Source: Slackia sp.
GTDB lineage: Bacteria; Actinomycetota; Coriobacteriia; Anaerosomatales; Anaerosomataceae
Assembly (NCBI GenBank): GCA_020725885.1
Contig: DYEA01000007.1
Coordinates: 124,001 to 188,000 of the forward strand
Direction of reading: 5' to 3'
DNA: 64,000 bases
Part shown: positions 20,253 through 25,098 of the stretch, piece after piece
How positions within the stretch are numbered: position 1 is the first letter of the stretch
Layout of the letters: each line of letters begins with the position of its first letter
Notes under the pieces: model-generated
Seen by the model: the letters and a program-made list of their open reading frames with translations, nothing else
What the model was told of the DNA's origin: nothing
The model's database searches: none
Program-made: the position numbers and the translations under genes

Positions 20253-20543
20253 GTGACTCCCGAGCGTCCAGCGCCACCGGAAGGCGCAGCGGTCTCGATC
20301 GAGGTCGTCGAGATCCAGGGGACGGGCGTCTGCTCGATCGGCTTGCAGGTCGGCGACCGATGGGTGGTGGATTCCGCCCTGGTGCCGCCGGGCATGTGCG
20401 GGTGGGCGTACGCCGCCATCCTGCCGTTCCTGCAACCCCTCCGGTTCGGCGGCTCGTTCCCGTGGGAAGCCCAGGGAGAAGCGCTCGTCTGCTGCCCTGA
20501 TCCTGCGAATCCCGTTGTCTTCCGGCTGTCCGTCGAACGCTGA
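20253..20543 (+). CDS. TIGR04076-like small protein, function unknown
   Basis: The 96-residue protein resembles the TIGR04076 family of roughly 90-residue proteins found mostly in anaerobes. It shows the family pattern: VEVVEIQGTGVCSIGLQVGDRW, PPGMCGWAYAAILPF, LRFGGSFPWE and CCPDPANPVVFRL. Cysteines at about 27, 50, 85 and 86 could bind metal or react with redox partners. The GTG start has AGAGGAG at 9 bp. It follows proS by 5 bp, and no function is known. Confidence 0.75.
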   Translation: MTPERPAPPEGAAVSIEVVEIQGTGVCSIGLQVGDRWVVDSALVPPGMCGWAYAAILPFLQPLRFGGSFPWEAQGEALVCCPDPANPVVFRLSVER

Positions 20544-20552
20544 CCCAGCGGG

Positions 20553-20581
20553 TTCACCGCCCCTGCGGGCTGTGCTAGAAT
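20553..20581 (+). promoter_or_regulatory. Extended -10 promoter of the rimP-nusA-infB operon
   Basis: TTCACC (20553-20558), a 17-bp spacer, then TAGAAT (20576-20581) with TGC directly before it. The predicted start near 20588 lies upstream of a terminator hairpin in the leader. Confidence 0.65.
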
Positions 20582-20612
20582 GCAGCCGCACGGAGAAATC
20601 TGCGGTTCTGGC

Positions 20613-20645
20613 GAGAAGTGGGCTGACCCCCGCTTCTTTTGTTCT
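20613..20645 (+). terminator. Intrinsic terminator in the leader of rimP-nusA (attenuator candidate)
   Basis: AGAAGTGGG pairs with CCCGCTTCT (nine pairs, one G-U) around a 6-nt loop, followed by TTTGTTCT. This is the best intrinsic terminator in the window, yet it sits between the rimP promoter and the rimP start. Just upstream CCGCA (20586-20590) can pair with TGCGG (20601-20605). It may attenuate the operon, and it also ends read-through from proS. Confidence 0.7.
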
Positions 20646-20669
20646 GGACGCGAGCCGAAGGAGGCAGCA

Positions 20670-21155
20670 GTGGCGCGAGACATCGCAGCAGAGATCGAGC
20701 AGGCGCTCGCCCCGCTCGCGCTCGCGCACGGCCTGGAGCTCGTGGCTGTCGAAGTCGCGGGACATTCTGGCAGGCCCGTGGTCCGCGTGTTCCTCGACCG
20801 CGAGAGCGGCATCGACCTCGACGCGATCGCGGAGGCCAACCCATGGATCTCCGACGCGATCGACGCGACCGAGGCGATCCACGGCTCGTACGTGCTGGAG
20901 GTCTCATCGCCCGGCATCGAGCGCCCGCTCCGGACGCCGCGCGACTGGGACCGCTTCGCCGGCCGCAGCGCCTCCGTGACGGTCGCTGAGGCGATCGCTG
21001 GCCGCAAGAAGCTGACCGGCGTGGTCGGCGGACACGACGGAGACGACGCCGTCCTCGAAGTCGAGGGCGCGATCGTCCGCATACCGTTCGCGCTGATCCG
21101 CAAAGCGCACCTGGTGTTCGACTTCCCGTCGTTCGAGAGCAAGGAGACGCGATGA
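20670..21155 (+). CDS. rimP: Ribosome maturation factor RimP
   Basis: RimP is needed for correct assembly of the 30S subunit. The 161-residue product has the N-terminal domain (LVAVEVAGHSGRPVVRVFLDRESGIDLD, spaced) and the family motif YVLEVSSPGIERPL followed by the SH3-like C-terminal domain (LTGVVGGHDGDDAVLEVEG). GTG at 20670 is the best start because AAGGAGG is 7 bp upstream; the frame stays open to 20580 but that part covers the terminator. Overlaps nusA by 4 bp. Confidence 0.93.
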   Translation: MARDIAAEIEQALAPLALAHGLELVAVEVAGHSGRPVVRVFLDRESGIDLDAIAEANPWISDAIDATEAIHGSYVLEVSSPGIERPLRTPRDWDRFAGRSASVTVAEAIAGRKKLTGVVGGHDGDDAVLEVEGAIVRIPFALIRKAHLVFDFPSFESKETR

Positions 21156-22288
21156 GCTCGGAGTTGATGGAGGCGCTGAAGCAGCTCGCCCGGGAGAAGA
21201 ACATCGACGAGATCGACATGCTCGACCGGCTCGAGCACACGCTCGCGCAGACCTACCGCAAGACGCTCGACCTCGAGAACGAGGCCCGCGTGGAGATCGA
21301 CCGGGAGACCGGGCGTATCCGCGTGTTCGAGCTCGTGCCCGTCGGCGGCACCGAAGAGGAACCCGTCTTCGAGGAGCGGGACATCACCCCGTCCGACATC
21401 TCGCGGTTCGCAGCGCTGGCCGCGAAGCAGGTCATCACGCAGGCGATCCGCGACGCGGAGCGCGAGCACATCTTCCAAGAGTACGCCGACCGCATCGGAG
21501 AGAGCATCACGGGCACCGTCCAGCAGTCGGACAGCCGGTACACCCTCATCAAGATCAGAGAGGGCGTCGAGGCGCTGCTCCCGCCCACCGAGCAGCCGCC
21601 GAACGAGCGCTACGACCACAACATGCGCCTCAAGGCGCTCATCATCGACGTCCGCAGGTCGTCTGGCAACGAGCCGTCGATCGTCGTGTCGCGTACCCAC
21701 CCGAACCTGCTCAAGCGCCTGTTCGAGCTCGAGGTGCCCGAGATCTACGACGGCATCGTCGAGATCAAGAGCGTGGCCCGCGAGCCGGGCATGCGCTCGA
21801 AGGTCGCGGTCTCGTCGCGCGAGCCGGGGCTCGACCCCGTCGGCGCGTGCGTCGGCCCGAAGGGCAGCCGCGTGCGTATGGTCGTCGCAGAACTCAAGGG
21901 CGAGCGCATCGACGTGATTCCGTGGTCGGACGACCCGGCCACCTTCGTCGCGAACGCGCTCTCGCCGGCCAAGGTCTCGTCGGTGCTCATCGACGAGGAC
22001 ACGCACACCGCGACCGTCATCGTGCCTGACGACCAGCTGTCGCTCGCCATCGGCAAGGAAGGCCAGAACGCCCGCCTTGCGGCCAAGCTCACGGGTTGGC
22101 GCATCGACATCAAGAGCATGACGCAGGCGATGGAAAGCGGCCTCCCCGTGTCGCCTGCTGGGCACGGTCCGGCCGAGCCGACGGACGGCCGGTGCGCCCA
22201 CACGACCGAGGACGGCATCCGTTGCAGGAACCAGGCGCTGCCCGGAAGCCGGTTCTGCCGGATCCACGCAGGAGAGGACGACGGCTAG
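21152..22288 (+). CDS. nusA: Transcription factor NusA with a C-terminal Cys/His knuckle
   Basis: NusA binds RNA polymerase and RNA and controls pausing, termination and antitermination. The 378-residue protein has the N-terminal polymerase-binding domain (1-125), S1 (130-200, [12 protein letters not shown]) and two KH domains ([11 protein letters not shown], then [21 protein letters not shown]). After the usual end at about residue 330, a tail carries Cys348, Cys358, Cys369 and His372 ([11 protein letters not shown], then FCRIHAG), spaced like the small Cys3His knuckle in DUF5763-type proteins. This extension is unusual for NusA. It is coupled to rimP and followed by ylxR after 3 bp. Confidence 0.96.
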
Positions 22289-22291
22289 CAC

Positions 22292-22591
22292 GTGAAGCAA
22301 CCGAAGCCACACCTGCGCACCTGCCTCGGCTGCGGTCGGGAAGCGGACAAACGGGAGCTCGTCCGGATCGTCCGCAGCCCCGAGGGCGACGTGTTCGTCG
22401 ACCCGTCGAGCAAGCGGAGCGGACGCGGCGCCTACGTGTGCGCCGACGAAGCGTGCTTCGAGGCGGCCGTGCGCAAGGACCGCCTCGGGCGGGCGCTGAA
22501 GACGACGGTCAAAGAGGACGACATCGAGCGATTGAGACACGAGTTCGAGCAGGTCGCAACGAGCGACGCTCGATTCAGGTCGGGACGGTGA
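22292..22591 (+). CDS. ylxR: YlxR family RNA-binding protein
   Basis: YlxR (DUF448) proteins are small nucleic-acid-binding proteins encoded between nusA and infB; in some bacteria YlxR binds RNase P or regulates expression. The 99-residue product has RTCLGCGREADKRELVRIV and the GRGAYVC motif typical of the family, with four cysteines. The start is GTG, and the stop shares one base with the infB start. The L7Ae-like gene (rplGA) that often follows ylxR in Firmicutes is absent. Confidence 0.9.
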   Translation: MKQPKPHLRTCLGCGREADKRELVRIVRSPEGDVFVDPSSKRSGRGAYVCADEACFEAAVRKDRLGRALKTTVKEDDIERLRHEFEQVATSDARFRSGR

Positions 22592-25098
22592 TGCGGATGC
22601 CAGCGATTCGAGTGCACGAGCTTGCAAAGGAATTCGGGATGAGCTCCAAGGAGCTGCTCGAGCACCTGGAGCGCCTGAAGATACCGGTGAAGGGCCACTC
22701 GTCGACGCTGCACGACGCGTATGTGCAGAAGATCCGCAAAGACCTCGCCCCGATCATCGCGGAGCGCCAGGCCGCGATGGAGGCCGAACGCGCGAAGCAG
22801 GAGGCCGAGGAGGCTGCCCGCAGGGCCGCAGAGGAGGAAGCTGCTCGAAAGGCCGCAGAGGAGGAGGCGGCGCGCAAAGCCGCTGAGGCTGCCGCACGGG
22901 CGGCCGCAGAGGCCCCGGCCCCGCCCGTCGAAGCCGCAGAGGAGCCCGCTGCAGAAGAAGCCGAGCCGGCGCTCGAGGCTCCGGCGCGGAAGGCTCGCGG
23001 CGTGGCGGCCATCGATGCTGAGCGCGCCAAGGCCAAGGCTGAGGCAGAGGAGCGGCTCCGCCGGATCGAGGAGGAGCGCAAGCGGCTCGAAGCCGAGGCC
23101 CGCGCCGCCGAGGAGCGCAAGCGGCTCGAGGAGGAAGCCGCCCGGCTCGAGGCCGAGGAGGCCGAACGCTATCGCCGCATGGCCAAGGAGGCCGAAGAGG
23201 CGGAGCGCCACGCGCACCTGCTGGCCGAGGCCGCGCGGCTCGCCGCGACCGGCACCGGCGGCAAGAAGAAGAAGAAAGCGAAGAAGCCCGGCGCCGAGCG
23301 GGAAGAGACGCCCGTCGTCGCCGCAGCCGAGCCGGCGAAGCCCGCTGTCGCAGTCGAGCAGGTCGTCGTCTCTGAAGGCGCGACCGTCGGCGAGTTCGCC
23401 GAGGCGCTCGGCGTGCCGCCGACTGACATCATCAAGCGCCTCATGATGCTCGGCGAGCTCCTGACGGTGAACCAGCCGATCGGCCGGACCACGATGGAGA
23501 TCCTTGCGGAGGACCTCGGCATCTCGCTCAAGGTCCTCTCGCCTGAGGAGGAGGCCGGCATCGTCTACGAGGACAGGCCGGAGGACCTCAAGCCGCGGCC
23601 GCCCGTGGTCACGGTCATGGGGCACGTCGACCACGGCAAGACCTCGCTTCTGGACGCCATCAGGGAGACTGGCGTGGCGGCGACCGAGGCCGGCGGCATC
23701 ACCCAGCACATCGGCGCGTCGGTCGTGCACCACAACGGCAAGCAGATCACCTTCATCGACACGCCGGGCCACGAGGCGTTCACGGCGATGCGCGCCCGCG
23801 GCGCGAAGGTCACGGACGTGGCCGTCCTGGTGGTCGCGGCGGACGACGGCGTGATGCCGCAGACGGTCGAAGCCATCAACCACGCGAAGGCCGCCGGCGT
23901 CCCGATCGTCGTCGCCGTGAACAAGATCGACAAGGACGGCGCGAATCCTGACCGCGTGCGGCAGGAGCTGACCGAGCACGGCATCATCCCCGAGGAGTGG
24001 GGCGGCTCGAACATCTTCGTCGACGTGAGCGCCAAGAAGCGCATCAACATCGACGAGCTCCTCGAGATGATCCTGCTGCAGGCCGAGGTGCTGGAGCTCA
24101 AGGCGAACCCCGACGCGCCGGCGCACGGCGTGGTCATCGAGGCGAAGCTGGACCGGGGCCGCGGACCGGTCGCAACGGTGCTCGTCCAGCGCGGCACCCT
24201 CCGCGTGGGCGACGCGGTCGTCGCCGGCACGAGCCACGGCCGCGTGCGGGCGCTCGTCGACCCGAAGGGCAACCAGGTCGAGGCCGCGCTCCCCGCAGAC
24301 CCCGTCGAGATCCTCGGCCTGGCAAGCGTGCCGGCTGCAGGCGACGAGTTCCGCGTGGTCGCAGACGAGCGCGAGGCGCGCCGGATCGCCGAGGAGCGCG
24401 CGCTCAAGCAGCGCCTGCTCGCCGAGCAGCGCAAGACGCACGTCAGCCTCGACGACCTGTTCTCGCGCATCGCGGAAGGCGAGCTCAAAGAGCTCAACCT
24501 CGTCGTCAAGGCCGACGTCCAGGGCTCGATCGAGGCGCTCAAGGACGCGCTCGACAAGATGGACCAGTCGGAGGTGCGCATCAACGTCATCCACTCGGGC
24601 GTGGGCGGCATCACCGAGTCGGACATCATGCTGGCCGACGCGTCCGACGCCATCGTCATCGGCTTCAACGTGCGCCCCGAGCCGAAGGCGAAGGCGCTCG
24701 CAGAGCAGGAGAAGGTGGACGTCCGCCTGTACCGCGTCATCTACCAGGCGATCGAGGACATCAACGCCGCGCGCGTCGGCCTGCTCGCGCCGACCATCGA
24801 AGAGCGCGACACCGGGCGTGCCGAGGTGCGCGAGCTCTTCAAGATCCCGAAGGTGGGCGTGGTGGCCGGATGCGTCGTGGTGGACGGCGAGATCAACGCC
24901 GACGACCAGGTGCGCGTCGTGCGCAACGGCGCGGTCGTCTTCGAGGGCAAGATCCGCTCGCTCCGTCACTTCAAGGAAGACGTCAAGAGCGTGCGCGCCG
25001 GCTCGGAGTGCGGCATCGCGATCGACGGGTTCCAGGACGTCAAGGAGGGCGACTACATCGAAGGCTTCAAGACCGTCGAGGTCGCCCGGAAGGAGTGA
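22591..25098 (+). CDS. infB: Translation initiation factor IF-2
   Basis: IF-2 is the GTPase that brings fMet-tRNA to the 30S subunit and joins subunits. The 835-residue protein starts with an IF2N motif ([21 protein letters not shown]), followed by a long Ala/Glu/Arg-rich segment (about 60-250, likely helical), a second N domain ([23 protein letters not shown]), the G domain with [32 protein letters not shown] and NKIDKD, then domains II-IV. The ATG at 22591 overlaps the ylxR stop; ATG 22597 is an alternative. The linker repeats are listed separately. Confidence 0.97.
22813..22893 (+). repeat. Three 27-bp tandem repeats inside infB
   Basis: Three imperfect copies of a nine-codon unit ([27 protein letters not shown]) lie in the charged linker of IF-2. 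The DNA varies at wobble positions while the protein pattern is kept, so they look like old duplications maintained for a charged helix. Confidence 0.8.

Follow-up and report, generated by a model that had tools for sequence, protein, structure and literature searches.

The window, as we call the whole stretch of 64,000 nucleotides that was analysed, contains the rimP-nusA-ylxR-infB operon of Slackia sp., with all four genes on the + strand. Upstream of the operon lie a gene that is presumably proS-like, judged by eye from its translation, and then a small gene of the TIGR04076 family. The 126 bases preceding rimP carry, on reading of the sequence, an extended -10 promoter, a hairpin, the tract TTTTGTTCT and a Shine-Dalgarno sequence, which lead up to a GTG start at 20670. 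The features are:

20253-20543: small gene of the TIGR04076 family (TIGR04076 match), just 5' of the rimP promoter
20553-20581, + strand: sigma-70-type promoter TTCACC-17-TAGAAT, extended TG one base 5' of the -10 hexamer (sequence scan)
20588-20612, + strand: short leader 5' of the terminator, beginning at the putative transcription start, without conserved structure
20613-20638, + strand: terminator hairpin GAGAAGUGGG[CUGACC]CCCGCUUCUU, last pairs inside the U-tract (folding, scans, 58 of 58 genomes)
20637-20645, + strand: interrupted U-tract UUUUGUUCU, with the end of the terminated transcript predicted near its 3' side
20657-20664, + strand: Shine-Dalgarno sequence GAAGGAGG of rimP, not part of the terminator stem (sequence)
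20670-21155, + strand: rimP, first gene of the operon, GTG start (Pfam RimP_N and RimP C-terminal domain)
21152-22288, + strand: nusA (TIGR01953, Pfam), whose residues 348-372 form a C-terminal zinc-knuckle-like module of the C-C-C-H type (pattern)
22292-22591, + strand: ylxR (Pfam PF04296)
22552-25098, + strand: open frame of infB (IF-2), member of the operon, true start within the frame approximate (Pfam IF-2 and GTP_EFTU)

The -10 spacing alone places the putative transcription start at about 20588. The terminator stem consisted of nine pairs plus a G-U at its foot (9-10 pairs), and hairpin and tail together folded at -14.7 kcal/mol compared to -7.3 (sd 2.2) for shuffled sequences (z -3.3), with none of 200 shuffles reaching this value. 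The initial annotation had claimed an extended -10 promoter before rimP, a nine-pair terminator with its tail, and a position of this terminator between promoter and first gene; all three were borne out, and every transcript from the promoter meets the hairpin. A simple terminator scan gave one match in 3 kb versus 1.0 (sd 1.1) in shuffles, which by itself proves nothing because shuffles yield an equal count. With a stricter detector the rimP hairpin was the sole candidate in the window on both strands.

When the same detector was run on 348,047 bases sampled from the source genome, eight terminator candidates came up, ranging from weak to strong. This agrees with the low use of intrinsic terminators described for Actinobacteria (PMC2965389). 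Because few intrinsic terminators were seen in this genome, the leader represents a clean natural test of the NusA-dependent terminator form. The window has a single copy of the string TTTTT on one strand and none on the other.

Conservation within the order and beyond

The order was represented by 61 genomes including the source genome, and its named public relatives were Coriobacteriia, some of them labelled Anaerosomatales. We located nusA in all 61 genomes, and 58 of them provided DNA upstream of the gene; two ended at contig borders (G024, G037), and G059, which has nusA at contig base 144, was left out. All 58 genomes carried the hairpin, 529-548 nt 5' of nusA, so that its absence from relatives, which the initial annotation had named as speaking against its reading, did not occur. 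The motif AAGTGGG was present in 56 of the 58, and the motif list was broadened to AAGCGGC and AAGCTGGG after inspection of loci L114 and L135. The tail read TTTTGTTCT in 41 genomes, TTTTCGTCT in 14 and otherwise in three. Its tract was interrupted throughout (58/58); in 56 genomes position 5 of the tract is not T, and in L125 and L131 the interruption lies elsewhere. The promoter was likewise conserved, as TGnTAnnnT stood 27-38 nt 5' of the hairpin's AAG in 51 of the 58 genomes; six of the other seven lacked the exact TG but still had TAGAAT or TAAAAT at the expected position, and in one of the seven (L134) a promoter copy was displaced by about 50 nt upstream.

For the analyses of pairing and covariation and for model building, identical hairpins were merged, which reduced the 58 to 36 unique ones. 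A covariance model built from these had one match in the source genome with an E value of 4e-14, the runner-up having an E value of 2.45. Across the 36 hairpins 98.6% of cells pair. The 5' arm GUGGG was nearly fixed, with its U.G wobble pair kept in 33 of 36, and G-C pairs changed chiefly by replacement of C with U in the 3' strand, giving the 3' arm variants CCCGC, CUCGC, UCCGC and CCUGC. Changes on both sides of a pair were absent among the 36 hairpins, and shuffles reached the covariation score in 294 of 500 cases. The evidence within the order is therefore sequence conservation and not covariation.

Between groups the stem does covary, with A-U and G-C exchanged in the lower stem between the order and Firmicutes. 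At position -2 the order has A-U, and all 25 unique hairpins from Firmicutes have G-C; at position -3 the order has G-C (28/30) versus A-U (23/25) in Firmicutes, and its U.G pair corresponds to U-A in 21 of the 25. The Firmicutes set comprised 36 segments (25 unique) picked by a pattern holding G[T/C]GGG, and it cannot reveal changes in this core because the selecting pattern holds the core fixed. Two loci of Bacilli (L088, Gottfriedia solisilvae, and L089, Bacillus sp. EAC) showed the stem GCAGG/CCUGC, a natural instance of two compensatory changes in the GUGGG/CCCAC core, and were two of the five Firmicutes loci that the detector missed.

We further screened Actinomycetota with a detector that requires a stem of at least 6 pairs, a T-rich tail and, in the 5' arm, GGG or GCGG. 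The 47 loci (L157-L203) were from families with a listed NusA place (one genome each), and families without one were excluded, including two of the class (f17, f19). The hairpin was found 468-703 nt 5' of nusA in 33 of the 47 families, compared to 1/47 on the reverse strand and 0/47 in each of three shuffles. The remaining 14 families were without a GGG-type hairpin 5' of nusA, two of them showing close variants, and the device may therefore have been lost in some; a family with genomes of 7-10 Mb (f37) was among the 14. With a slightly looser detector the hairpin was found in all eight Coriobacteriales/Eggerthellales and in 38 of 43 Firmicutes loci. The detector also matched 16 of the 43 Firmicutes reverse strands, an unfair control in this group because hairpins flanked by A/T are near-symmetric. 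A phylum-wide search with model R1 and stricter filters matched 13 of 197 genomes, and of the 14 matched places eight were upstream of a rimP/nusA match and six elsewhere.

Relation to rimP-leaders and a proposed role of NusA

In 2010 Naville and Gautheret named the 'rimP-leader', described as the most ubiquitous transcription attenuator, with a GGGc...gCCC stem, no visible antiterminator and NusA as the best candidate effector (PMC2965389). The leader described here resembles it in its position 5' of rimP-nusA-infB, in a short GGG...CCC hairpin followed by a T-stretch, in having no larger element or antiterminator, and in NusA as the likely effector. The window hairpin pairs GGG with CCC on folding, a conserved feature of rimP-leaders that was also present in the relatives, and the hairpin with its T-stretch lies in the predicted 5' UTR. 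The 31 nt between the terminator (20638) and the start of rimP (20670) fall inside the 4-130 nt range of the general form. The order differs in its 5' arm GUGGG with U.G and in a drifting 3' arm. The window hairpin lacks the flanking c-g pair, and 12 of the order's 30 unique hairpins have C-G at this place. We do not treat this pair as defining because it is printed in lower case in the description of the family (PMC2965389). Rfam family RF01770 (rimP) shares the gene position and presumed role and has a model of 102 positions. Above the family cut-off it had no match in the source genome, and of 14 control genomes only that of E. coli matched. Leaders of the present form therefore escape annotation.

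Mondal et al. (2016), whom we take to be the source of the statement on Bacillus subtilis, reportedly described a terminator without antiterminator in its nusA-operon leader. Autoregulation of B. subtilis NusA through NusA-stimulated termination in its own leader is stated in PMC12288461. B. subtilis and Slackia sp. both have an intrinsic terminator in the 5' leader of the operon; autoregulation by NusA was tested experimentally in B. subtilis and is inferred in Slackia sp., and the B. subtilis leader, given as 180 nt (PMC2965389), is longer than the one described here. In Streptococcus agalactiae the leader of the same operon (gbs0413-gbs0418) has a terminator close behind the start, a short transcript stops 31 nt downstream of that start, and NusA feedback was proposed (PMC4448216); that case rests on RNA-seq, while our leader was derived from sequence. 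Distal interruptions of the U-tract are reported to be frequent in terminators dependent on NusA and NusG (PMC8060035), and the interrupted tract found in all 58 genomes resembles these.

The hairpin is a real and conserved terminator of a known kind, and it is very probably regulatory. By analogy with these systems we consider it likely that it acts as a rimP-leader attenuator through which NusA exerts feedback on rimP-nusA-ylxR-infB. RNA polymerase would start near 20588, and about 50 nt later the GUGGG/CCCGC hairpin would form, followed by the imperfect U-tract. Polymerase-bound NusA, probably together with NusG, would stabilise hairpin and pause, and a fraction of transcripts would stop near 20643-20646. 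Scarce NusA would then allow more readthrough into the four genes and plentiful NusA less, and an antiterminator RNA, a leader peptide or a small molecule would not be required. Termination at the hairpin with an efficiency set by NusA is what we infer, and NusA might be one influence among others because the hairpin is fairly stable.

Architecture, conservation and missing antiterminator fit a feedback attenuator that acts through a termination factor. The feedback interpretation of the initial annotation is supported by these properties and by the known rimP-leaders, with the role of NusA assigned by analogy, and it is essentially correct but not new. What we add is the spread across Actinomycetota, the fixed GUGGG versus the drifting 3' arm, a tract that is interrupted in every one of the 58 genomes, and the retention of the leader despite few terminators. 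We found no report of this leader in Coriobacteriia in the open-licence literature. A known autoregulatory device thereby gains a class of Actinomycetota that has received little study, and among the families sampled it is common across the phylum.

Alternative structures and explanations

A classical attenuator or riboswitch, in which a first hairpin or another upstream strand competes with the terminator, is very improbable here. The window does allow a CCGCA/TGCGG pairing, and some Gammaproteobacterial rimP-leaders are described as having an additional terminator further upstream, together with a possible antiterminator (PMC2965389). However, the consensus fold of the 58 leaders contained no conserved structure beyond the terminator stem, energies were at the level of shuffles (z -0.2 and +0.1 for the small upstream hairpin alone, z -0.15 for the 85-nt leader as a whole), and RF01770 was unmatched in the source genome. 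As the consensus consists of the terminator stem alone, the first hairpin and the antiterminator are unsupported, and both were rejected; the CCGCA arm of the small hairpin (20586-20590) also begins 5' of the proposed transcription start. The initial annotation had included this small hairpin and had suggested examining the leaders of relatives for a competing pairing and for covariation of both hairpins. The first hairpin turned out not to be conserved, a competing pairing did not appear in the 58 leaders, and covariation held for the terminator stem between groups and not within the order. It is next to inconceivable that the hairpin is coding, with rimP beginning upstream at ATG 20580: the frame is open from there into rimP, but this ATG sits inside the -10 element and a good Shine-Dalgarno sequence precedes GTG 20670. 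No coding frame was conserved across the hairpin in the 58 genomes, where hairpin-to-nusA distances split over the three frames (26, 17 and 15), and because all three occur the hairpin does not belong to a longer N-terminus of rimP.

Two further explanations retain the terminator and differ in what controls it. It might be a fixed, unregulated partial terminator that sets the basal level of the operon against a strong promoter. This is unlikely; a leader without sensor or alternative structure and a hairpin encountered by every transcript would suit it, but a GUGGG arm and tail fixed over 58 genomes exceed the need of a partial stop, and regulation is reported for B. subtilis (PMC12288461). 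A main effector other than NusA, be it NusG or the overall pausing state of RNA polymerase, with the tract as a NusG pause signal, appears more unlikely still. The tract reads UUUUGUUCU here and UUUUAUUU or UUUUCUUU in other families and is similar to the NusG pause motif TTNTTT (PMC8060035), but TTTTCGTCT, found in 14 of 58 genomes, matches this motif poorly. Moreover, nusG was not seen among the operon genes examined, and the feedback logic would therefore be lost.

Two other readings of the terminator region were rejected. A duplex between the Shine-Dalgarno sequence and the 3' arm plus tract reached -13.4 kcal/mol but only z -0.6, and it cannot antiterminate because it requires RNA 3' of the termination point. 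The TGTTCT of the tail was likened to boxA, but genomes with TTTTCGTCT break this motif.

The GUGGG arm and the zinc-knuckle-like module of NusA

The G-rich arm tolerates wobble only through changes on the other side, and this asymmetry suggests, without proving it, recognition of sequence. GUGGG and the fixed tail might then form a sequence-specific NusA site and be more than one strand of a stem, the arm staying constant as its partner drifts through wobble pairs; the site would be read in Coriobacteriia via a C-terminal zinc-knuckle module that NusA shares with the beta-prime subunit of the polymerase, and the leader would be a dedicated NusA sensor. We regard this as doubtful. If true, the leader would be a NusA sensor retained in a lineage that largely gave up intrinsic terminators.

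The C-C-C-H module at the C-terminus of NusA spans 25 residues (window 22193-22267). A strict pattern detected it in 22 of 30 NusA sequences of the order, the other eight showing it in their tails by eye, as well as in 5 of 8 from Coriobacteriales/Eggerthellales and 0 of 43 from Firmicutes. Two copies of the NusA-type module (G000:C11:3934-4308; L227, L228) end a frame of 1436 aa in the source genome. We take this frame to encode the beta-prime subunit of RNA polymerase, recognised by eye from the sequence of relatives. A copy of the module in a relative matched Pfam DUF5763 below the cut-off.
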